From the NCBI GenBank assembly GCA_009783085.1, contig WRHU01000005.1:87177-151176 (forward strand): a DNA stretch of 64,000 nucleotides, in the 5' to 3' direction. Positions 33,143-45,310 of this stretch are shown here, piece by piece. This stretch comes from Coriobacteriia bacterium. GTDB taxonomy: Bacteria > Actinomycetota > Coriobacteriia > Coriobacteriales > UBA8131. Within the stretch, counting starts at the first letter, position 1; each line of letters starts with the position of its first letter. Under the pieces are notes generated by a model. It had not been told where the DNA came from, made no database searches, and worked only from the letters and a program-made list of their open reading frames with translations. The position numbers and the translations under genes are program-made.

Positions 33143-34432
33143 CTAGGCTCTCAATGACAGCAGGCTCTCCTCAGCGGCAGCAACAAAAGCAGCAATGTGT
33201 TCTTTTGTGTGCGCAGTTGAGAGAAACAGAGCCTCAAACTGGCTCGGGGCGATAAGAAAGCCGTGCTGCAGCATGCCTCTAAAATAACGTGCAAACAGCT
33301 CGGTGTTGCTTGCTTGGGCTGTTTCCCAATCCACAACGGCTTTATCCGTAAAGAACAAGGTAGCGACCGAACCAACGCGGTTTACCGTTGCTTCACAACC
33401 GCTGTTTGCACAAGCCGCAAGCAAGCCTTCCTCAAGCTGTGCGCCCAGAAGCTCAAGCTGCTCGTAAGTGCCCGGTTTTTCAAGCTCACTTATCAGGGCG
33501 AGTCCGGCAGCCATCACCACAGGGTTGCCCGAAAGCGTTCCTGCCTGATAAACCGAGCCAACGGGAGCAAGACATTCCATAATTTTGCGCTTGCCACCAA
33601 AGGCACCCACAGGAAAACCGCCGCCAATGATTTTGCCCAAAGTTGTAAGGTCGGGCGTAACGCCATAAAGCTCCTGTGCGCCACCGAGGGCCGCACGAAA
33701 ACCAGAGATAACCTCATCAAAAATAAGCACAACCTCGTGCTCGTCGCACAAGTTGCGCAAGCCCTGTAGGTAGCCGTCACTAGGAGAAACAACGCCCATG
33801 TTTCCGGCGATGGGCTCAATGATAAGTGCTGCGACCTCGCCTTTGTTAGCCTCAAGACAGGCCGCTACCGCCTCAAGATTGTTGTAGGGCAAAACCAGCG
33901 TATCGCCCGCCGTGCCTTTTGTGACCCCCGGCGTACCCGGAATGCCCAGCGTCGCAACGCCTGAACCAGCAGCAACCAGCAGCGAGTCGCTGTGTCCGTG
34001 GTAGTTTCCGTCAAACTTAATAAGTTTTTCACGCCCCGTAAAACCACGGGCAAGCCTAATGGCGCTCATAGTAGCCTCAGTGCCCGACGAAACCATACGC
34101 ACCATTTCTATTGAAGGAACAACTTCTGCAAGTTTTTGAGCAAGTTTGACCTCGAGCTCGCACGGCGCACCAAACGAGGTGCCGTTTTCGAGCTGCGCAC
34201 GAACTGCGTTGATAACTGCCTCTGGCGCATGCCCTAAAATCATCGGTCCCCAAGAAAGCACAAAGTCAAGATACTCGTTGCCGTCAACGTCAAGCACCTG
34301 TACCCCTTTTGCTTTCTCATAAAACACAGGGTCGATGCCTACCGACTTAAACGCACGAACCGGTGAGTTTACGCCTCCCGGAATGAGCGTTTGCGCGGTA
34401 GCAAAAAGGTTTGTTGAGTTTTTGGTGTTCAT
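33143..34432 (-). CDS. hemL: Glutamate-1-semialdehyde 2,1-aminomutase
   Basis: 429 residues from the ATG at 34432 (the track adds 50 upstream residues). It converts glutamate-1-semialdehyde to 5-aminolevulinate with PLP. Seen: TLIPGGVNSPVRAFKSV at the N-terminus, LSWGPMILGHA, MVSSGTEATMSAIRLARGFTG, NYHGHSDSLLVAAGSG, LIFDEVISGFRAALGGAQ, GKIIGGGFPVGAFGGKR with the Schiff-base Lys and GTLSGNPVVMAAGL. Last gene of the heme operon, 43 bp after ahbAB. Confidence 0.97.
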   Translation of the reverse strand: MNTKNSTNLFATAQTLIPGGVNSPVRAFKSVGIDPVFYEKAKGVQVLDVDGNEYLDFVLSWGPMILGHAPEAVINAVRAQLENGTSFGAPCELEVKLAQKLAEVVPSIEMVRMVSSGTEATMSAIRLARGFTGREKLIKFDGNYHGHSDSLLVAAGSGVATLGIPGTPGVTKGTAGDTLVLPYNNLEAVAACLEANKGEVAALIIEPIAGNMGVVSPSDGYLQGLRNLCDEHEVVLIFDEVISGFRAALGGAQELYGVTPDLTTLGKIIGGGFPVGAFGGKRKIMECLAPVGSVYQAGTLSGNPVVMAAGLALISELEKPGTYEQLELLGAQLEEGLLAACANSGCEATVNRVGSVATLFFTDKAVVDWETAQASNTELFARYFRGMLQHGFLIAPSQFEALFLSTAHTKEHIAAFVAAAEESLLSLRA

Positions 34433-34475
34433 GGTTTGCGCACCCAGCTTTCTGCATTGTTGCGATTCAGTGTTG

Positions 34476-35507
34476 TTAAAGCTCCTCGGCAAAATAAGAC
34501 ATCGAAGTTTTTTTGAACTCCTTGGTGGAGTACAACAACACGGGAGCGTCAAGTCCCGTTGCCTCCTGAATGCGCTGCGCAACCGCCTCGCATTCGTCCT
34601 TGCTTTTGCCGTGTATCATCGTGTAGGTGTTTGCCGTCCACGTTGGCGTCGATGGTCGCTGGTAACAATGACTCACTTCCTTAAACGACGCCATAATGGG
34701 CCCAAGCTCGTCAAGTTTTTCTTCGGGAACCGTCCACGTGCCCATAGCGTTGCAGGTAAAGCCCGTTTTGTGATGCTTGATAGCCGCACCAAGCCGTCGA
34801 ATAACACGCTCGTTCACCCAAGTTTCTGTAGTTTTTAGCACCCAAGCCTCGTCGCAAGAAAAACCCTGCTCGGTAAGTTTTTGAGCAAGCTCTTTGTAGG
34901 GAGTAAGTCCTGCGGGGAGGTCTGCCTGCAGCAGACGAACAAGGGCTTTTTCCTCCTCGGTTGCTTTGATGGCAGCGGAAAGTGCCGGCTTCAAAACGGG
35001 GAGTTTTTCCTCACGCACGCTGCGCTTTCCCGTGAAATCAAAATCAACACGAATCTTAAAAAGACGAATGGCGGGGAGGTTGAGAATGTCATCTATGCTG
35101 GTGCTCTCGGCAATCTCAGCCAAAATCTCCTCAATGCGCTGCTCGGACGGAGCAATAAGCGTGAACCAGACGTTGTAACGATTTTCTCGGAGGTAATTGT
35201 GAGTTACGTTGGGGTAGCTGCTGATGTGCGCTGCCACTTCCTCAACCTGTTCATTTGGAACAGCAATCGCACACAAGGTCGAACGATAGCCCAATTTATA
35301 GGAATCAAAAATCGCACCTAAACGCCGAATGACGCCGCCTTTGCGCAGCTCATCTATGCTGGCGTAGGCTTCGTTTTCGGTTATGCCAAGTTTTTCTGCG
35401 AGCTCACCGTACGGTCTTTGCGACACGGGAAACCCCGATTGGATAACCGATAGAAGTTCTTTTTGCAGCTCGGTGAGCTGAGTTATTGCCGTGTGTTCTC
35501 TGTTCAT
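34476..35507 (-). CDS. ahbAB: Siroheme decarboxylase, AhbA-AhbB fusion
   Basis: 343 residues containing two Lrp/AsnC-like units. First: winged helix QRPYGELAEKLGITENEAYASIDELRKGGVIRRLGAIFDS, then a ferredoxin-like domain with VTHNYLRENRYNVWFTL (to about 165). Second: TPYKELAQKLTEQGFSCDEAWV...RVIRRLGAAIKHHKTGFTCNAMGTW with VSHCYQRPSTPTW (about 190-343). This is the tandem NirDL/AhbAB layout; in Desulfovibrio AhbA and AhbB are separate genes. By family knowledge it removes two acetate carboxyls of siroheme to give 12,18-didecarboxysiroheme. 1 bp after ahbD, and 43 bp before hemL. Confidence 0.93.
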   Translation of the reverse strand: MNREHTAITQLTELQKELLSVIQSGFPVSQRPYGELAEKLGITENEAYASIDELRKGGVIRRLGAIFDSYKLGYRSTLCAIAVPNEQVEEVAAHISSYPNVTHNYLRENRYNVWFTLIAPSEQRIEEILAEIAESTSIDDILNLPAIRLFKIRVDFDFTGKRSVREEKLPVLKPALSAAIKATEEEKALVRLLQADLPAGLTPYKELAQKLTEQGFSCDEAWVLKTTETWVNERVIRRLGAAIKHHKTGFTCNAMGTWTVPEEKLDELGPIMASFKEVSHCYQRPSTPTWTANTYTMIHGKSKDECEAVAQRIQEATGLDAPVLLYSTKEFKKTSMSYFAEEL

Positions 35508-35508
35508 C

Positions 35509-36852
35509 TTACGCCCTCAAAGCCTTGGGAACATACGCACAATACGGCTCTTCGTCAAGATAATCTCCTGTGTTTTCAAGCGCACGCGCACGGCAACCTC
35601 CGCACACCGCCTTGTATTCACACGCTCCGCATTTACCTTTGAGCTTACTGTAGTCACGCAGGTCATTAAAGACCGGCGAGTTAGTCCAGATCTCACCAAA
35701 GGGCTGCTCCTTGACGTTGCCCAGCTGCATATCAAAGTATCCGCAGGGCTGCAAATCGCCCACGTGCGAAATAAAACAAAAGGTGATGCCGCCCAAACAA
35801 CCCCGTGTCATCGCATCAAGGCCATAAGTTTCGGGAGTGACCTCCCTGCCCTCCTCTTTTGCTTTTTGCCGAATAATCCGATAATACTGCGGAGAGTCCG
35901 TGGGCTTGAAGTGCAAAGATGAGGTCTGCTGGCGGTCATACGCCCACGTGAGCGCATCTTCATATTCCTGCGGCGTAAGCTCTAAATCGCGCAGATTGTC
36001 GCCCCGTCCCGTAGGAACGAGCATAAAAATGTGGAAAGCATCAACGCCAAGGCTCTCGGCAAGGTCGTGCATTTCTACCAGTTTTTTATGGTTGAGCTTG
36101 GTCACCGTGGTGTTAATTTGCACACCAACGCCGTGTGCCTTAACGGTTTTAATGCCCCGAATGGTGTCCTCAAAACAACCCTTTATGCCTCTGAACTCGT
36201 CGTGTTCTTGGGCGTTTGGAAAATCTATCGAAACAGAAATGCGGGGGATTTTATGCTCTTTGAGTTTTTGTGCAATCTCATCGGTGATGAGCGTGGCGTT
36301 AGTGCCTACAACGGGCATCGCACCTTTTTCTTGCGCATAGTCAATGATGTCCCAAAGATCAGGACGCAAAAGAGGCTCGCCGCCGGTCAGAATTAAAATT
36401 GGGTTGGTGATGGCAGTAATGTCGTCAATAGTGTTTTTAATTTGGTCGAGCGACAGTTCACCGGGATAGGTGCCGAACTCAGAGGCGGCACGGCAATGCA
36501 CGCAGCTCAAGTTGCACGACCGGGTAATTTCCCATGCGATAATGCGTGGTGGTTTGATGCCGGTGCGCTCCTCATAGGCGATCGCAGCAGGCCCACCTCC
36601 CGGACGAAAACCAACCGAGCGTGCGCCGCCGTGGCGTTGGAGAGCTGCAGGGTGGCCGCCTGTTTTCGGTACACCAGCGGGATGACCGCCGCCAGAACTG
36701 CTGCCGCCGCCAGAACTGCTGCCACCGCCAGAACCACCGCCCAAGGGAATGCCCACGCCTGTTTTTCCGCAGCCAGCCTCTATCTCGGCAAGCTCTTGTT
36801 CTCTTTTGATATCTTGTTTGTCATTAAACATAGTATTTTGCCTAGCTTTCAT
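35509..36852 (-). CDS. ahbD: Heme b synthase AhbD (radical SAM)
   Basis: 447 residues. Radical SAM motif CNLSCVHC at about 117-124 with IIAWEITRS before it, TGGEPLLRPDL, then a C-terminal SPASM-like cluster CGACEYKAVCGGCRARA. By family knowledge AhbD decarboxylates the propionates of Fe-coproporphyrin III to vinyls, giving heme b. The choice of AhbD over AhbC rests on CVHCRA and the CGACEY...CGGCRARA tail. Residues about 30-85 are a Gly/Ser/His-rich insert (GGGSGGGSSSGGGSSSGGG) from short DNA repeats, absent from the family core. An ATG 21 bp downstream is another possible start. Confidence 0.88.
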   Translation of the reverse strand: MKARQNTMFNDKQDIKREQELAEIEAGCGKTGVGIPLGGGSGGGSSSGGGSSSGGGHPAGVPKTGGHPAALQRHGGARSVGFRPGGGPAAIAYEERTGIKPPRIIAWEITRSCNLSCVHCRAASEFGTYPGELSLDQIKNTIDDITAITNPILILTGGEPLLRPDLWDIIDYAQEKGAMPVVGTNATLITDEIAQKLKEHKIPRISVSIDFPNAQEHDEFRGIKGCFEDTIRGIKTVKAHGVGVQINTTVTKLNHKKLVEMHDLAESLGVDAFHIFMLVPTGRGDNLRDLELTPQEYEDALTWAYDRQQTSSLHFKPTDSPQYYRIIRQKAKEEGREVTPETYGLDAMTRGCLGGITFCFISHVGDLQPCGYFDMQLGNVKEQPFGEIWTNSPVFNDLRDYSKLKGKCGACEYKAVCGGCRARALENTGDYLDEEPYCAYVPKALRA

Positions 36853-36870: not shown

Positions 36871-37848
36871 CTACCCGCGCAACCAGCGAGCAACGTCTTT
36901 GGCGTGATAGCTAATAATCAGCTGCGCTCCAGCACGCTTAAAGCCCGTCATGGTTTCCATTACCACACGCTGCTCGTCAATCCAACCTTGAGCTGCCGCG
37001 GCCTTGACCATTGCGTACTCTCCAGAAACGTTATATGCCACCACGGGATACCCAAACTCATCTTTTACCCGACGGATAATGTCCATATACGCCAGCGCAG
37101 GCTTTACGATAACCACATCGCAGCCCTCCCCAATGTCGAGCGCAACCTCTCTGAGCGCCTCATCACCATTGGCAGGATCCATCTGATACGCACGACGGTC
37201 GCCAAAGGCAGGCGTAGAATCCGCCGCCTCTCTAAACGGTCCGTAATAACCGCTCGCATACTTGGCAGAATATGCCATGATGGGCACGCTCTCAAAGCCA
37301 GTGTCATCAAGAGCGGTGCGCAAGGCAGCAACCCTTCCGTCCATCATGTCTGACGGCGCCACCATATCAGCACCGGCACGTGCGTGAGAAACCGCCTCTT
37401 TAGCAAGCAGCTCAAGCGTTTGGTCGTTAAGCACTGCGCCGTTCTCGTCCACAATGCCACAGTGACCGTGGTCGGTATACTCACACAAACACACATCGGT
37501 AATCACATAAAAATCAGGGTGGCTTGCCTTGATGGTGCGTATTGCCTCTTGCACAATGCCGTGGTCATCATAAGCCTCCGAGCCCAGCGCATCTTTGTTC
37601 TCGGGCAGCCCAAACAAAATAACCGCCAAAATGCCCAGCTCAACAAGCTCGGTTATCTCGGCTTCAAGTTTGTCGAGCGAAACTTGATACACGCCTGGCA
37701 TTGAAGAAACCTCGTCGCGCAGGCCCTTCCCCGGCTTTACAAACAGCGGATAAATAAAATCGCTCGCCGAAAGCCGTGTTTCGCACATCATGGCACGAAT
37801 GCTTGCGTTTGCCCGCAGGCGACGGGGGCGATACTCTGGATAGTTCAT
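36871..37848 (-). CDS. hemB: Delta-aminolevulinic acid dehydratase (porphobilinogen synthase)
   Basis: 325 residues, full length. It condenses two 5-aminolevulinate molecules. Seen: [20 protein letters not shown] at the start, [20 protein letters not shown], the Zn-type cysteine site [52 protein letters not shown] with the first Schiff-base Lys and [15 protein letters not shown] with the second. Cytoplasmic octamer by family knowledge. It sits 18 bp before ahbD; the 89 bp behind its start carry GCAACACTCCT repeats. Confidence 0.97.
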
Positions 37849-37937: not shown

Positions 37938-39140
37938 CTAATCAGCCTTTTTTATTTCCTCGTCGGTGAGGTAGCAGGCGGGGTCGGTATCCCACAAGTC
38001 GCCCGTTGCGGCCTCACTTCTCACTCGGAAGTTGCCTCCGCAAATATCAAGCCAACGGCACTCCTCGCAACGACCCTTTACGTACGGACGTTTATTTTTG
38101 AGGCGCTTCATAAGTTCGCTGCGCTCATCGTTGCCAGAAACATCGGTCCAAATCTCGCTAAACGGACGCTCTCGCACGTTGCCAAGCGAAAAGTGTCGCC
38201 AAAATTGGTCGGGGTAGACCTCGCCGTCCCACGAAATACAACCAATACCGTTGCCCGAGGAGTTGCCCTGGTTCCACTGGAGGAGCTGCAATACGTCCTC
38301 GGCACGCTTGGGGTCCTCTTTGAGAAGCTCCATGTAAACAAACGGGCCGTCGGCGTGGTTGTCAACCGTCAATATCTCAGGCGTGAGCCCCTTGTCAAAC
38401 ATGGCTTGGGTGCGATCCATAATAAGGCGCACCGCCTTGCGCGTTTCGTCGTGGTCAAGATCCTCTTTCATAAGTTCGCTTCCCCGTCCGGTGTACACAA
38501 GGTGATAAAAACACGCACGAGGGATATTTTCTTGCTCAAGCAGGTCAAAAACGTCGTTAATATCTTGCCAGTTGCGCTTGTTGATGGTCATGCGCAGGCC
38601 CACTTTGATACCAGCGTTGGTAGCGTTTCGCACGCCACGGATTGCCTTGTCAAACGAGCCTGGGATTCCTCTAAAATCGTCGTGCGTTGCGGGGCCTCCG
38701 TCAAGCGAAATGCCCACGTACGAAAGCCCTACCTCGGCAAATTGCTCAGCAAGTTTGGGCGTAATAAGCGTGCCGTTTGTTGAGATAACCACCCGCATGC
38801 CCTTGCCCTTTGCGTAATGCATAAGCTCGATAAGGTCTTTGCGCATGCAAGGCTCGCCGCCACTAAACAGCAGCACCGGCGCACCAAAGGCAGCAAGGTC
38901 GTCTATCATTACTTTAGCTTCCTCAGTGGTAAGCTCGCCGGTGTATTGACGATTTTCTGAGTGAGCATAGCAGTGTACGCACTTAAGATTGCAGCGCTGC
39001 GTGCAATTCCAGACAACCACCGGTTTTTTGTCGGCAGAAAACTGAAGGAGTTCGCTCGGCAGCTTTTTTGAACTTCGGTTATAGCGAAGCACATCGGCTG
39101 CCTCAACTGCCCCACAATACAGTTTGGATATTCCTATCAT
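37938..39140 (-). CDS. ahbC: 12,18-didecarboxysiroheme deacetylase AhbC (radical SAM)
   Basis: 400 residues, start MIGISKLYCG, which I recall as the usual AhbC N-terminus. Radical SAM motif CNLKCVHC at about 49-56 within VVVWNCTQRCNLKCVHCYAH, FSGGEPCMRKDLIELM, VGLSYVGISLDGG, and a C-terminal cysteine group GRCEECRWLDICGGNFRVR. By family knowledge it removes the two acetate side chains to leave methyls (Fe-coproporphyrin III). ATG 39140 after AACGTGAACAA; the RBS (GAAAGGAAACG) is good. It lies between hemB and cobA-hemD. Confidence 0.92.
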   Translation of the reverse strand: MIGISKLYCGAVEAADVLRYNRSSKKLPSELLQFSADKKPVVVWNCTQRCNLKCVHCYAHSENRQYTGELTTEEAKVMIDDLAAFGAPVLLFSGGEPCMRKDLIELMHYAKGKGMRVVISTNGTLITPKLAEQFAEVGLSYVGISLDGGPATHDDFRGIPGSFDKAIRGVRNATNAGIKVGLRMTINKRNWQDINDVFDLLEQENIPRACFYHLVYTGRGSELMKEDLDHDETRKAVRLIMDRTQAMFDKGLTPEILTVDNHADGPFVYMELLKEDPKRAEDVLQLLQWNQGNSSGNGIGCISWDGEVYPDQFWRHFSLGNVRERPFSEIWTDVSGNDERSELMKRLKNKRPYVKGRCEECRWLDICGGNFRVRSEAATGDLWDTDPACYLTDEEIKKAD

Positions 39141-39195: not shown

Positions 39196-40746
39196 TTATA
39201 TTTCTTTGCCGAACAACTCAGCGACCGCAAGAACGAGGCCGTCGATGGTAGCCTGCTTTGCTTCGCAGTCAACAACAAGTCCGAGTTCTTGGGCGGTCTG
39301 GCTCGTAATTGGTCCAATAGAAACAATTTTTACGCCTTTAAGAACCTCACTTGCGCTCGTGCCTTTAGGCAAGCCAGCACGCAAAAGTTCCATAAAGTTT
39401 TTAACCGTTGATGATGAAGTGAAGGTGACCACGTCAATGTCGCCTTCGACAAAGCGCTCAACAACACTTGCAGAGCCGTGGCCCATAACAGTTTCGTAAA
39501 CTGCTGCAACGTCTACCTGCACGCCGTGCTCTCGTAGTACGCTGGGCAAAACCTCTCGGGCCTCTTTGGCACGAGAAACTAAAACCTTGCTTTTGGCGTT
39601 CAAGCCTTGCTCCAAGAAGCCTTCCAAAAGACCTTCTGCGTTGTACTCTGCAGGAACATAGTCTGCCCGGATACCACGTTGTGCGAGGCTGGTTGCCGTC
39701 GTAGAGCCAACGGCAGCAAAGCGTGCCTGCGCAAGACAGCGCACGTCTTTTTCTTTGGTTTTTAGACGGTCAAAGAACCCATCTACTCCGTTTGTGCTGG
39801 TAAATACTATCCAATCATAGCTCTCGATAGCAGCAATAGCCGCATCTGCCTCTGTCCAACTGCTTGGTTCTTTAATCCGAATGGTTGGAAACTCCAGCGT
39901 TTCTGCCCCCAGCTCGGCAAGTTTATCAACAAGATCGCTTGCTTGCGCACGCGAGCGGGTAACCACAATGCTTTTGCCAAAGAGCGGCTTGTTTTCAAAC
40001 CACTGCAGCTTCTCGCGCAGAGCAACCGCCTCGCCCACCAAGGTAATTGCGGGAGCTTGAAAGTTCGCTTGGGCTGCTTTCTCGGCAATATCTGCAAGCG
40101 TTCCCACCAACACTTCTTGGCGGGGTGTTGTTCCCCAACGAATAAGAGCGACGGGCGTATTCTCGTCACGACCGTTTTCTACAAGGCGCGCGGTGATAGT
40201 AGGGAGGTTTTTGATGCCCATAAAAAAACAAATGGTTCCTACTGCAGTGGCAAGACCTTTCCAGTTGATGTCGCTTGTTTGCTTGGTGGGATCCTCGTGC
40301 CCGGTGACAAACGCCATGTCGGTGGTGATGCCCCGATGCGTTACCGGTATGCCGGCGTAGGTGGGAGCGGCATAACCAGACGAAATGCCCGGCACCACTT
40401 CAAACGAGATATTGTGCTCGCTAAGCGCAAGCGCCTCCTCGCCACCACGACCAAAGATAAAAGGGTCGCCACCTTTAAGGCGGGCAACAATTTTGCCGCC
40501 GTCGCGCTGGGCAGTTTCTATGAGGAGCTCGTTGATTTCGTCTTGGGTAACGTGTTTGGAAAAGCCTTTTTTGCCAACATAAATAAGCTCAGCGTCAAGA
40601 TTTGCATACGCCAAAAAACAGGGGTTGGCGAGGTAGTCGTAGACCACAATGTCGGCTTTTTTTAGGCACTCAAGACCCTTTATGGTCATAAGGCCCGGGT
40701 CGCCCGGCCCTGCTCCTATTAAATATACCAGCGGCTTTGTAGCCAT
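39196..40746 (-). CDS. cobA-hemD: Uroporphyrinogen-III C-methyltransferase / uroporphyrinogen-III synthase fusion
   Basis: 516 residues. Residues 1-245: SUMT with VYLIGAGPGDPGLMTIKGLE, VVYDYLANP, RLKGGDPFIFGRGGEE and FEVVPGISSGYAAP (SAM binding). Residues about 255-510: HemD with KSIVVTRSRAQASDLVDKL, VFTSTNGVDGFF, YNAEGLLEGFLEQG and DVVTFTSSSTVKNF. One chain therefore closes the tetrapyrrole ring and then methylates it to precorrin-2. In this pathway both steps are needed on every molecule made into heme, which fits the fusion. It reads from ATG 40746; the 154 bp before it hold hexamer repeats. Confidence 0.96.
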   Translation of the reverse strand: MATKPLVYLIGAGPGDPGLMTIKGLECLKKADIVVYDYLANPCFLAYANLDAELIYVGKKGFSKHVTQDEINELLIETAQRDGGKIVARLKGGDPFIFGRGGEEALALSEHNISFEVVPGISSGYAAPTYAGIPVTHRGITTDMAFVTGHEDPTKQTSDINWKGLATAVGTICFFMGIKNLPTITARLVENGRDENTPVALIRWGTTPRQEVLVGTLADIAEKAAQANFQAPAITLVGEAVALREKLQWFENKPLFGKSIVVTRSRAQASDLVDKLAELGAETLEFPTIRIKEPSSWTEADAAIAAIESYDWIVFTSTNGVDGFFDRLKTKEKDVRCLAQARFAAVGSTTATSLAQRGIRADYVPAEYNAEGLLEGFLEQGLNAKSKVLVSRAKEAREVLPSVLREHGVQVDVAAVYETVMGHGSASVVERFVEGDIDVVTFTSSSTVKNFMELLRAGLPKGTSASEVLKGVKIVSIGPITSQTAQELGLVVDCEAKQATIDGLVLAVAELFGKEI

Positions 40747-40900: not shown

Positions 40901-41872
40901 TTAGACCGCTTCTGCCTCAGTGCGCACTGCTTCCAAAATCTCTGCTGCTCCACGTGCCTTAAGTGCTTCAACCATAGCTATTCCAAGTGCCTCTGGCTCT
41001 GCTGGCGAACCAACAAGCTGCTCTCGAATAAGCGTTGCGCCGTCAACCGAGGCTACCATTGCGTCCATTACTAGCGTTTCGTTTTCTCTGCGAGCGTACG
41101 CCCCAATGGGAACTTGACAGCCTCCCTCAAGGCCACTCATAACAACACGCTCGCTTGTTACGCAAGTCATGGTGTCTGCATCATTGAGAGCAGCACAAAT
41201 CTCCTGCATGAACGCATCATTTTCGCGGATTTCAACAGCGATAGCACCCTGCCCCACCGCGCTTATCATCTCCTCGGTAGGAATATAGCCAGTAATTCTT
41301 TCCTCCCAGCCCATGCGCGTGATTCCTGCGCTTGCCAAAACCACAGCATCAACCTCGCCCGTTTCTGCCTTGCGCAGGCGCGTATCCAAGTTTCCCCGCA
41401 CGTCCACCAGTATAAGGTCGCTGCGTAAAGCTGCGATTTGTGCCCGACGGCGCAGCGAACTTGTTCCCACGCTCGCACCGTGCGGTAGCTCTTTCAAACC
41501 GCCTTTTGTTGCCGAAACAATTACGTCACGGGCATCAACACGCGGAGGCGTTGCTGCGATAACCAGTCCATCGGGGAGCTGGGTGGGCATATCCTTCATA
41601 GAATGCACGCACAAATCAACGCTCCCGCCAAGAAGCTCAAGTTCGAGCTCTTTGGTAAACAGCCCTTTTTCGCCTATCTTTGCAAGCGGTACGTCAAGAA
41701 TCTTATCGCCTGTTGTTTTGATGATTTTGATTTCGACCTGCACATCGCAAGACTTCTGAATGAGCTCTTTGATGTGCTCAGACTGCCAGAGCGCAAGCTT
41801 GCTGCCCCGCGTTCCGATGGTCAGTTTTTTTTGGGCATCTTGTGTGTCCGGTATGCCTCGTGTATCTAACAC
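40901..41872 (-). CDS. hemC: Porphobilinogen deaminase (hydroxymethylbilane synthase)
   Basis: The track starts at 42043 inside hemA. I choose GTG 41872 after GAGGAGCCTAGC, giving 323 residues. Seen: LTIGTRGSKLALWQSEHIKE, IKTTGDKILDVPLAKIGEKG, SVDLCVHSMKDMPT, ASVGTSSLRRRAQI, VDVRGNLDTRLRKAETGEVDAVVLA, and LEGGCQVPIGAYA carrying the cysteine that holds the dipyrromethane cofactor. It starts 1 bp after the hemA stop, so it is coupled. Confidence 0.96.
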   Translation of the reverse strand: MLDTRGIPDTQDAQKKLTIGTRGSKLALWQSEHIKELIQKSCDVQVEIKIIKTTGDKILDVPLAKIGEKGLFTKELELELLGGSVDLCVHSMKDMPTQLPDGLVIAATPPRVDARDVIVSATKGGLKELPHGASVGTSSLRRRAQIAALRSDLILVDVRGNLDTRLRKAETGEVDAVVLASAGITRMGWEERITGYIPTEEMISAVGQGAIAVEIRENDAFMQEICAALNDADTMTCVTSERVVMSGLEGGCQVPIGAYARRENETLVMDAMVASVDGATLIREQLVGSPAEPEALGIAMVEALKARGAAEILEAVRTEAEAV

Positions 41873-41873
41873 G

Positions 41874-43361
41874 CTAGGCTCCTCTCTTTGGAGCTGGGGA
41901 GGTGGTTGGTGTGTTGTCGCCCACTTCTTGGTTTGCCTCGCTGCTTGTTTCTTGCTCAGTTGGCAACTGCGGCGCTGTTGTCGCTGTCGCCGGTTGCGCC
42001 GATGCATGATGGTGCCGTTTTGGTTGCGGAAAATCCTCGGCACTTTTTCCTAAAAGATTTCTAATGAGCCCCCGGTGACGAGGCTTCTCGTCAGGGTTTA
42101 TATCAAGACCATACAAAAAGCGTGCCGTTTCAACACGTTCGTAGCTGTTGTCCTCTGCCGCTCCTGCCTTGAGGCGCATGGTGGGGCCATGAAGCAGCTT
42201 GTTTACCAGAGCATTTGCCATTGCATCAACAACCGCCTTGTCGGTATCATCAAGATTGCCAAGACGCTTCATGGCTTTAGCGACCTCATCATCTCGAATG
42301 CCCTCTGCTTTGGCACGTATTTGCGCAATAGTAGGCTCGACAATAAGTGTTTCAATCCACTGAGAAAAACTGTTGGTTTCCTCAACTATGATTTCCTCGG
42401 CACGAACCGCCTCGCGTTTGCGCTCCTCAAGATTGGCATCCACCACACCGTTAAGATCGTCAATGTCATAAAGATAGACGTCGTTAAGCTCGTGGACCGC
42501 TGGGTCAATGTCGCGCGGCAGGGCAATGTCAATGAGAAAGAGTGCCTTGCCACGAACTCCTTTGCGAGCCTTTGCCACCTCGTCTTTGGTAATCACGTAG
42601 CCGGGCGCAGCGGTGGAGGAAATAACGATGTCCGCATTTCTCATGTGCGCAAAAAGCTCCTCGTAGCGAATTGCCTCGCCCTCAAAAAGCTCAGCAATCT
42701 CACAGGCTTTCTCATAGGTTCTGTTTGCCACCAGCACCGAACCAACGCCCTGGCTTACCAGGTGTTTTGCCGTAAGCTCGCTCATTTTGCCCGCACCAAC
42801 AATCAAGATGGTGCGTCCCTCAAGCGCATCAAATACACGGCGTGCAAGCTCAACGGCAGCATAGCTTATCGAAACAGCACTTTCGCCAATGCCGGTTTCT
42901 GAGCGAACACGCTTTCCCAGCTCAAAACTCTGTCTAAAAAGTTTGTTAAAAATGCGATCTGTCGCCCCGTTGCTTGAGGCAAAGCCGTAGGCCTCTTTAA
43001 TTTGCCCCAATATCTGTGCCTCACCAAGCACCATAGACTCCAACGATGAAACTACGCGGAAAAGATGCCCCACCATTTTCATGTCTTGGTGATGATAGAG
43101 ATACTTTTTGATTTCGCAGAGATCAAGGTTGTGATAGCCCGCCATAAACTCGGCAACAACCTCAAAACCATTACAGGCATCGCGCGTAACCGCATAAATC
43201 TCGGTTCGGTTGCAGGTCGAAAGAATGACGGCTTCTGCAACTTCATCTTTTGACACCAGCAAAGAGAGCGCATCTGCCTGAATGCTCTCGGGAAAGGTAA
43301 GTTTTTCCCGTATTTCTATGGGTGCTGTTTTATGGCTAAGCCCAACCACGGTAAGATGCAT
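41874..43361 (-). CDS. hemA: Glutamyl-tRNA reductase
   Basis: 495 residues. First committed step of C5 tetrapyrrole synthesis. Seen: VVGLSHKTAPIEIREKLTF, ILSTCNRTEIYAV with the catalytic Cys (about 50), SLESMVLGEAQILGQIKEAYG, IGESAVSISYAAVELA, RTILIVGAGKMSELTAKHL (NADPH domain), VLVANRTYEKA and ALFLIDIALPRDIDP. The C-terminal 60 residues are a Thr/Pro/Ala/Glu-rich tail beyond the usual dimer helix. Its substrate tRNA-Glu is encoded just upstream of the operon. Confidence 0.97.
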   Translation of the reverse strand: MHLTVVGLSHKTAPIEIREKLTFPESIQADALSLLVSKDEVAEAVILSTCNRTEIYAVTRDACNGFEVVAEFMAGYHNLDLCEIKKYLYHHQDMKMVGHLFRVVSSLESMVLGEAQILGQIKEAYGFASSNGATDRIFNKLFRQSFELGKRVRSETGIGESAVSISYAAVELARRVFDALEGRTILIVGAGKMSELTAKHLVSQGVGSVLVANRTYEKACEIAELFEGEAIRYEELFAHMRNADIVISSTAAPGYVITKDEVAKARKGVRGKALFLIDIALPRDIDPAVHELNDVYLYDIDDLNGVVDANLEERKREAVRAEEIIVEETNSFSQWIETLIVEPTIAQIRAKAEGIRDDEVAKAMKRLGNLDDTDKAVVDAMANALVNKLLHGPTMRLKAGAAEDNSYERVETARFLYGLDINPDEKPRHRGLIRNLLGKSAEDFPQPKRHHHASAQPATATTAPQLPTEQETSSEANQEVGDNTPTTSPAPKRGA

Positions 43362-43367
43362 AGGGCA

Positions 43368-44156
43368 TCAGCTGCCGTTCTTTTGATTGGGGGCGGGCGT
43401 GGGTGTGTTGGGTTCAGGCGATGAGGCTGCAACAGACGTAGCCTTGTTTACCGCCCGCCTACAGCTCGTATCGCATGAAGCACATTCGCCCAGCTTACAG
43501 GCAAACTCAGCAGGAGCAAACTCATCAAAAAGTTGCTCGGCACTCAACAGCTCACCTGCCTCAAGACGGTCAAACAAATTGGCGTGCGCCATTGCCTCAA
43601 AGAGAGGCTTGCGTGCCTCCTCGCCACCAGGAATACGCGAAAGCACCAGCGGACGCACCTCGCCAAGAAGCGCTACGTAGTCGCCCCACATGTCGTCATA
43701 GGTTTCCTCAAGTTGCCTGCGAATAGTGCGAGCAACCACCGGAGAAGCGCCGCCCGTTGAAATGGCAATTTGCAGCGGGCCTCGCTTGAGCGTTGAGGGC
43801 ACAATAAAGTTGCAGTAGGGCGGATAATCGACCATGTTAAGCAGCGTGCCCAGCTCCTCTGCCTCCTCATAAACCGCACGGTTGACCTCGGCGTTATCGG
43901 TTGCACACACTACCAAAAAAGCTTTTTTGAGGTCGCCTTTTTGATAGGCACGTGCGTGATAGGTAATTTTATTTTCGGCGGCAAGGTCTTTGACCAGCGG
44001 TGTGGTCTGCGGTGCTATAACGTGCACGTCTGCGCCTTGCTCCGCAAGGTTTTCGATTTTGCGTTGCCCCACATTGCCTGCGCCAATAACAAGCACGCGG
44101 CGGTCTTCTAAATCCAAAAACGCAGGATAATATGAACGATTGTAACTATGCGTCAT
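43368..44156 (-). CDS. Precorrin-2 dehydrogenase / sirohydrochlorin ferrochelatase (Met8/CysG-N type)
   Basis: 262 residues from ATG 44156; the track uses a TTG at 44162. Rossmann start RVLVIGAGNVGQRKIENLAE, FLVVCATDNAEVNRAV, LLNMVDYPPYCNFIVPSTL with the catalytic Asp, IAISTGGASPVVARTIRRQLE. By family knowledge it oxidises precorrin-2 to sirohydrochlorin and in some forms inserts iron. No separate CbiX/SirB chelatase is in this operon, so this protein may do both (inference). The C-terminus adds CKLGECASCDTSCRRA, a five-cysteine cluster unusual for the family. Confidence 0.9.
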   Translation of the reverse strand: MTHSYNRSYYPAFLDLEDRRVLVIGAGNVGQRKIENLAEQGADVHVIAPQTTPLVKDLAAENKITYHARAYQKGDLKKAFLVVCATDNAEVNRAVYEEAEELGTLLNMVDYPPYCNFIVPSTLKRGPLQIAISTGGASPVVARTIRRQLEETYDDMWGDYVALLGEVRPLVLSRIPGGEEARKPLFEAMAHANLFDRLEAGELLSAEQLFDEFAPAEFACKLGECASCDTSCRRAVNKATSVAASSPEPNTPTPAPNQKNGS

Positions 44157-44162
44157 GGTCAA

Positions 44163-45125
44163 TTATGCTCCCAGCATGAGTGCAGAAATTGCTTCTGCAG
44201 GCAGGGTCGCAGGGAACATTGTTGCCGACATGAGCGCGGGGCTCGTAGCCGCCGGCAAGAATGCTGGACTCTCGGATATCGGCACAAACGCAGGGCCTAC
44301 CGTCGCCGGCAAAAACATAGGAACCATTCCCATAACAATGAGCAAGAGTACGGCGAGCGAACCAATTGAAATCGCAAGAAACGAGGACGATTTTACCGAA
44401 ACACCGTTGCGGTAGACCTGCAAAAGATAGAGCGCGCAGATGAACCAAAGAACGCTCACCAGCACTATGCGCGGAGCAACAAACCACGAAGTGTAACTCA
44501 GTCCCGCCGTCATAACAGCACCAACAAACATTCCCACGGTAAGAAATGGGAAGCCAACCAGAATTGACGAACGGGAAACTCGTTTAAGCGTAGAGAGCGG
44601 CGGAATACGGCGGCTCACACGTGTGACCTTGTGCTTTTTGAGGAGCGCATCTTGATAGACGAGTAATCCTGCCGAAATTGCTCCCAAAATAAGTGCCGCA
44701 AAAGCGATAAGCAGCACAACAATATGAAAGACCAAAAGAACTTGTGAGTCGGAGGCATAGTCCGCTGCCCACTCAGGGTTAATGCTCGTAAGAATACGCC
44801 CTACCGACATAAGAAGCGCAGCGATGATTGCCAAAAACGCTCCGTAAGCTTTTGATTTTGTTATAAGCTCGAAAATGATATAGAGCAGTACCGCCACCCA
44901 CGAAGCAAGCGTGACCACATTTGGCCCTGAAAGCAGGGTTCCGTGCGTAAGAACCGAGCTAAACCCAATCGAAGCCGTCTGGGCAATAAAGCCAAGGACT
45001 ATAAGGATAAGAGCGTAGTTGCCGATTTTTTGCTGACGGAGCAAAAACTGGTACGCATAGAGGCACGCTCCAACGCAGTACAGCACGAGGGCTGCCCAAA
45101 AGAAACTTGCGGCTGCAACAGACAC
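44163..45125 (-). CDS. CcsA/HemX-like cytochrome c assembly membrane protein
   Basis: 320 residues; GTG 45125 after TAAGGAGGAAAC. Eight hydrophobic segments (SFFWAALVLYCVGACLYAY, ALILIVLGFIAQTASIG, VVTLASWVAVLLYIIFELI and others), with the HemX/CcsA pattern but no clear WWD motif in the loops. The last 45 residues are an Ala/Pro/Thr/Met-rich repeat (PAFLPAATSPALMSATMFPA). By family knowledge such proteins handle or export heme, or support HemA. First gene of the heme operon; its stop touches the next start. Confidence 0.8.
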   Translation of the reverse strand: MSVAAASFFWAALVLYCVGACLYAYQFLLRQQKIGNYALILIVLGFIAQTASIGFSSVLTHGTLLSGPNVVTLASWVAVLLYIIFELITKSKAYGAFLAIIAALLMSVGRILTSINPEWAADYASDSQVLLVFHIVVLLIAFAALILGAISAGLLVYQDALLKKHKVTRVSRRIPPLSTLKRVSRSSILVGFPFLTVGMFVGAVMTAGLSYTSWFVAPRIVLVSVLWFICALYLLQVYRNGVSVKSSSFLAISIGSLAVLLLIVMGMVPMFLPATVGPAFVPISESPAFLPAATSPALMSATMFPATLPAEAISALMLGA

Positions 45126-45176
45126 GTTTCCTCCTTAGCTTGCTTGCCTACTAGGACATTTCTGAAATCGTAACCG

Positions 45177-45252
45177 TGGTGCCCCCAGAAGAATTTGAAT
45201 CTCCGTTTCCACTCTGAGAGAGTAGCGTCCTTGGCCGCTAGACGATGGGGGC
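45177..45252 (-). tRNA. tRNA-Glu (anticodon CTC)
   Basis: On minus: acceptor GCCCCCA/TGGGGGC, discriminator A, encoded CCA; D arm with TCTAGCGGCCAAGGACGC; anticodon stem CTACT/AGTGG, loop CTCTCAG giving CTC; T arm GGAGA/TCTTC with TTCAAAT. It lies 51 bp upstream of the heme operon start on the same strand. Confidence 0.95.
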
Positions 45253-45281
45253 ATTTTGGAACAAAAACATCGCCCGAGTGT

Positions 45282-45310
45282 ATCATAAAGCTGCACTTTT
45301 TCGGGGTAAA
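45282..45310 (-). promoter_or_regulatory. Promoter upstream of tRNA-Glu
   Basis: On minus: TTTACC, a 17-bp spacer and TATGAT, about 30 bp before the tRNA 5' end. No terminator is seen between the tRNA and the heme operon, so this promoter may serve both. Confidence 0.6.

Follow-up and report, generated by a model that had tools for sequence, protein, structure and literature searches.

The tRNA-Glu(CTC) gene at the head of the heme operon in the window (the whole analysed stretch of 64,000 nucleotides) is probably co-expressed with, and largely dedicated to, the glutamyl-tRNA reductase (GluTR) HemA of that operon, to judge from comparative sequence data. HemA uses glutamyl-tRNA-Glu as its substrate, and the sequence of the operon tRNA suggests that it serves mainly heme and not protein synthesis, a split of tasks that would be rare among tRNAs. 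An earlier note on this DNA had proposed that co-transcription ties the supply of the tRNA to the pathway; the conserved linkage described below supports this, with transcription predicted from the gene layout. What goes beyond that proposal is that the operon tRNA is a separate, divergent tRNA-Glu, of which the anticodon loop has drifted while the T-arm has been held.

Both ARAGORN and Rfam identified the gene, exactly 51 nt upstream of the operon and on the same strand, as had been noted earlier (Table 1), and with both a cloverleaf, a Glu anticodon and a CCA end were all found to be present. U33 is located at 45219, the anticodon at 45218-45216, A53 at 45200 and U61 at 45192. The window copy retains U33 and a standard anticodon loop of 7 nt, and no decoding defect is visible in it. 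The identity bases for GluRS, which we take to be U35, C36, U11-A24, U13-G22, A46 and the absence of base 47, were all recovered from the sequence and the alignment, and charging of the tRNA is predicted on that basis.

The common strand, the 51-nt gap and the lack of a terminator between the tRNA and the first open reading frame together form the layout of an operon member. A scan of the spacer (45126-45176) for terminators revealed no terminator-like site, in agreement with the earlier note, and the spacer folded no better than shuffled sequences (z -0.95). A terminator-like hairpin is located at 45347-45333, between the upstream TatD-like gene and tRNA-Glu, which makes it plausible that the tRNA starts the transcript. 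The promoter of its own that had been ascribed to the tRNA exists as a candidate, but it is weak and barely above chance level, as the region contains four promoter-like matches where 1.6 would be expected by chance.

From the tRNA onwards, the operon encodes HemX-like, CysG-N, HemA, HemC, CobA-HemD, Ahb, HemB and HemL proteins, and hemL ends at 33143. The presence of two radical SAM proteins and an AhbA/AhbB-like fusion, next to CysG-N and CobA-HemD, points to the siroheme-dependent (Ahb) route of heme synthesis. HemA (41874-43361) carries a C-terminal extension of approximately 70 residues past the dimerisation domain, which overlaps the listed hemC open reading frame. The start listed for hemC falls within this overlap with hemA, and the real start is probably located further downstream.

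Table 1. Features of the tRNA-Glu/heme operon region, in window coordinates
Feature	Position	Strand	Evidence and remarks
Candidate sigma-70 promoter TTTACC-17-TATGAT, putative tRNA/operon transcript	45282..45310	(-)	Consensus scan, 9/12 matches, weak
tRNA-Glu(CTC)	45177..45252	(-)	76 nt, CCA encoded; ARAGORN; Rfam 51.4 bits
T-arm GGAGA-TTCAAAT-TCTTC with A53-U61	45188..45204	(-)	Conserved signature of the tRNA group; alignments and group comparison
Spacer from tRNA to first operon ORF	45126..45176	(-)	51 nt; ribosome-binding site AGGAGG; no terminator
HemX/CcsA-like membrane protein (Cytochrom_C_asm)	44163..45125	(-)	Pfam PF01578; first operon ORF
Precorrin-2 dehydrogenase (CysG-N/SirC-like)	43368..44162	(-)	Pfam PF13241, PF14824
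HemA, glutamyl-tRNA reductase	41874..43361	(-)	Pfam GlutR_N, Shikimate_DH, GlutR_dimer; STCNRTEIY motif
HemC, porphobilinogen deaminase	40901..42043	(-)	Pfam
CobA-HemD fusion	39196..40746	(-)	Pfam TP_methylase and HEM4
Radical SAM protein, AhbC/AhbD-like	37938..39140	(-)	Pfam Radical_SAM and SPASM
HemB	36871..37848	(-)	Pfam ALAD
Second radical SAM protein, AhbC/AhbD-like	35509..36852	(-)	Pfam Radical_SAM and SPASM
AhbA-AhbB-like siroheme decarboxylase fusion	34476..35507	(-)	Pfam PF22451, PF17805 twice
HemL	33143..34582	(-)	Pfam Aminotran_3; tRNA directly 3' of hemL in most relatives

The source genome (1.58 Mb in 19 contigs, 91 % complete) contains three tRNA-Glu genes. Next to the operon copy, the other two, which were not known to the earlier note, are a tRNA-Glu(CTC) on contig C1, which adjoins tRNA-Gln(CTG), and a tRNA-Glu(TTC) on contig C2, so that the operon copy is redundant for decoding. 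With 51.4 bits it is among the lowest-scoring tRNAs of the genome, and it has A53-U61 where both other tRNA-Glu species have G53-C61. Only one synthetase of family PF00749, GluRS, is encoded. GAG is the more common glutamate codon in the sampled genes of the window (274 GAG versus 166 GAA).

A covariance model built from four operon tRNAs was used to search 251 Coriobacteriales genomes. The carrier class comprises the 24 genomes with matches of at least 87 bits, all of which had A53 on inspection; as the score gap between the operon type and ordinary tRNA-Glu is small (87.6 versus 86.5), the class was set by sequence rather than by score; the search may have overlooked copies that score under 86 bits. 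In 23 of these 24 genomes, which belong to several families, the tRNA is located at an Ahb-type heme operon. Among the relatives discussed here, G075 is taken to be Eggerthella lenta DSM 2243, G025 Cryptobacterium curtum and G214 Slackia heliotrinireducens. Most often, the tRNA follows hemL on its 3' side in the same orientation, after a gap of 7-170 nt and in one case of 1,116 nt, while in G002 and G020 it is flanked by hemL and hemX. The window copy instead precedes hemX at its 5' side, and hemL closes the operon at the opposite end. The synteny considered in the earlier note is thus conserved at the level of linkage to the heme operon but not of exact place; with the linkage kept in relatives, the proposal is not refuted by the change of place.

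An exception to the usual arrangement is G014, in which the tRNA is located 0.9 kb from hemL on the opposite strand. This copy (L114:1876-1950), which a small AbrB-like gene separates from the antisense hemL, has an anticodon loop of 6 nt and was not called by ARAGORN. The sole carrier without visible hem genes is G032, the genome of which is 78 % complete. Its A53 tRNA-Glu(CTC, C33) forms a tandem pair with a tRNA-Glu(TTC) of the ordinary type (L143:5307-5569), and an integrase gene adjoins a nearby tRNA-Met. Conversely, the flank in question could be seen for 24 Ahb operons, and of these only the one in G241 was without the tRNA. That genome carries, away from the heme operon, a tRNA-Glu(TTC) with G33 and G53-C61 (L142:3041-3116), which is possibly a displaced and altered copy.

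A terminator scan of 21 loci revealed strong intrinsic terminators within approximately 10-15 nt after the tRNA in many of them (for instance in G043, G053, G104, G075, G100, G061, G196, G244, and G235), while in the interval that separates hemL from the tRNA terminators were absent or weak, G214, where the gap is long, being the exception. In five genomes (G169, G053, G232, G002, and G046) this interval is 7-15 nt, which leaves scant space for a separate promoter outside hemL. The short gaps, combined with terminators right after the tRNA, make co-transcription likely in those relatives. In G235, G190, and G226, the tRNA is immediately preceded by a TATAAT- or TATACT-like box, which suggests that the gene may have an additional promoter of its own there.

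The tRNA occurs together with one type of HemA. HemA (PF05201) was found in 55 of the 251 genomes at a loose threshold, of which approximately 46 were convincing. It is present in 22 of the 24 tRNA carriers versus approximately 24 of the 227 other genomes (Fisher p ~1e-16, uncorrected for kinship). HemA presence alone was rejected as a predictor of the tRNA, as the tRNA is missing from the genomes with a B12-type HemA operon. The B12-type operon consists of HemA, CobA-HemD, HemB, and HemL without Ahb proteins, a label given from the absence of the heme genes. In the HemA tree, the B12-type enzymes are separated from the heme-type enzymes with a support of 93/86. In the four genera that comprise both states (g47, g81, g50, and g24), possession of the tRNA goes along with that of the heme-type HemA, and the congeners without the tRNA have either a B12-type operon or no convincing HemA. 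All tRNA-Glu species found in 10 B12-type genomes and in 11 genomes without a convincing HemA had G53-C61 and U33 in this comparison. G190 contains both a heme-type and a B12-type HemA (C1:205313 and C1:1020512), and offers a natural test of which tRNA-Glu is used by each type.

The distribution of sequence variation in the operon group is the inverse of that in ordinary tRNA-Glu. Among unique sequences, the mean pairwise difference per site in the anticodon loop was 0.271 in the operon group versus 0.000 in ordinary CTC and 0.026 in ordinary TTC species, while in the T-arm it was 0.091 versus 0.203 and 0.169, respectively. The operon group has A53 where G53 is near-universal in ordinary tRNA-Glu, and U35 and C36 are invariant in it. 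Strict A53-U61 pairing was rejected as a hallmark, as about half of the group has A53-C61. At position 33, the usual U has given way to C, A, or G in 8 of 19 unique operon sequences, versus a non-U base in 2 of 38 ordinary ones (p 0.001). Loss of U33 as proof of non-decoding is weakened by the occurrence of C33 in two ordinary tRNA-Glu(TTC) sequences; in the source genome itself, C33 replaces U33 in a tRNA-Val(GAC) (C6:79241-79313, L023). That the operon tRNAs are pseudogenes was rejected because conservation of their acceptor, D-arm and T-arm extends over several families. The inverted constraint would be expected if decoding had been relaxed while charging and use by GluTR were kept.

In sister orders of the class, the ordinary tRNA-Glu(TTC) combines U33 with A53-U61 and is presumably used in translation and tetrapyrrole synthesis alike. 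Such tRNAs were also seen in other members of the phylum, and A53 as a block to translation was rejected on this ground: A53 predates the link with the operon and is no bar to translation. An A53 tRNA-Glu(CTC) in which position 33 is C or G occurs in some sister-order genomes, as a rule adjacent to or in the vicinity of tRNA-Val(TAC) rather than of hem genes. A plausible history is that A53 fits the vertically inherited GluTR of the class, that the extra CTC tRNA of Coriobacteriales relocated to hemL with its A53 retained, and that the ordinary tRNA-Glu copies of this order drifted to G53.

These data are best explained by a specialised second tRNA-Glu that would share a transcript with the heme operon of the siroheme (Ahb) route and act mainly as the glutamate carrier of HemA. 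The single GluRS would charge it by means of the retained identity bases (positions 35-36 and the D-arm), the heme-type glutamyl-tRNA reductase would take Glu-tRNA from the operon copy, probably favouring its T-arm (A53), and decoding would be covered by the two ordinary tRNA-Glu genes. Expression of the carrier with hemA and hemL could match the supply of tRNA to the demand of the pathway, with less competition from EF-Tu. For the window's own copy, which has kept U33 and may still decode GAG, dedication is suggested by the behaviour of the group. Whether the same holds across Coriobacteriales, Eggerthella lenta included, as a pathway-dedicated cofactor tRNA-Glu that hardly or not at all decodes in many lineages and is co-adapted through A53 with its own GluTR, is about evenly balanced.

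A slightly divergent but otherwise ordinary tRNA-Glu(CUC) might instead serve both translation and heme synthesis, its location raising Glu-tRNA levels when the operon is on. The U33 and intact anticodon arm of the window copy would allow this, as would the predominance of GAG over GAA and the A53 tRNA-Glu(TTC) of the sister orders, which presumably translates. As this genome and almost all relatives checked already have an ordinary CUC tRNA, and as relatives have C33, A33, G33, or a 6-nt loop within an inverted constraint profile, we consider such double use rather unlikely. The linkage to hem genes could also be an inherited neighbourhood without any functional tie, since tRNA genes are often located in operons. 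A tRNA-Ala(CGC), which is no substrate of the pathway, is conserved between hemD and hemB on the same strand in sister-order heme operons (L278-L297; e.g. L278:9250-9325 and L294:10903-10978), and location in an operon alone should therefore not be over-read. Against mere hitchhiking, the tRNA is gained and lost along with the heme-type HemA within genera, it is redundant for decoding yet matched in its amino acid to the pathway, and the link has survived moves between three sites (3' of hemL, between hemL and hemX, and 5' of hemX), so that we regard this explanation as improbable. Finally, the leader position in the window could suit a tRNA-like element that senses the state of GluRS, GluTR, or heme and controls the operon in cis. 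A leader-type regulator was judged unlikely, as the tRNA is found at the 3' end of the operon in most relatives, and with its CCA end, intact acceptor and D-arm it looks chargeable; the chance of a regulatory role is very slight. Dedication to HemA is thus the reading that we prefer.

It has long been asked how cells divide Glu-tRNA over translation and tetrapyrrole synthesis, and the split appears here to be built into the genome. The separate operon-encoded carrier with its own signature occurs in culturable gut bacteria, relatives of the same genus with and without the tRNA are natural controls, and A53 and U33 provide direct mutational handles on the requirements of GluTR versus those of the ribosome.

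A53-U61 is a feature noted for the chloroplast and cyanobacterial tRNA-Glu used in ALA synthesis. A literature search for A53/U61 in connection with GluTR found no open paper, and no tRNA-Glu gene within a heme operon was reported in the literature searched, the coverage of which was partial. The chloroplast and cyanobacterial tRNAs are dual-function UUC species, whereas the operon group consists of extra copies with A53-U61 or A53-C61. In Acidithiobacillus ferrooxidans, as in the Coriobacteriales studied here, there are several tRNA-Glu species, which differ there as substrates of GluTR: three of the four serve both pathways and one is no GluTR substrate, the specialist thus being a translation-only tRNA, with no hem linkage described in the accessible part of that account (PMC4284751). 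Like the operon tRNA, tRNA-Glu2 (CUC) of Coxiella burnetii is an extra CUC species proposed to act in heme synthesis, and its deletion slows growth; a direct role in ALA synthesis is putative. It differs in being confined to a single lineage, in being thought to be horizontally acquired, and in its reported location beside a toxin-antitoxin pair and not in a hem operon (PMC5423948). The clearest functional parallel to the relaxed-decoding pattern of the operon group is the plastid trnE of Balanophora, a tRNA-Glu predicted, in the source and the works cited there, to serve tetrapyrrole synthesis only, although it belongs to a plastid genome that has lost photosynthesis, shows more extreme decay and is not located in a hem operon (PMC13128298). 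The idea of a tetrapyrrole-dedicated tRNA-Glu is already known, while a bacterial version that is encoded in an operon, shared by a whole group and marked by a sequence signature appears to be new.
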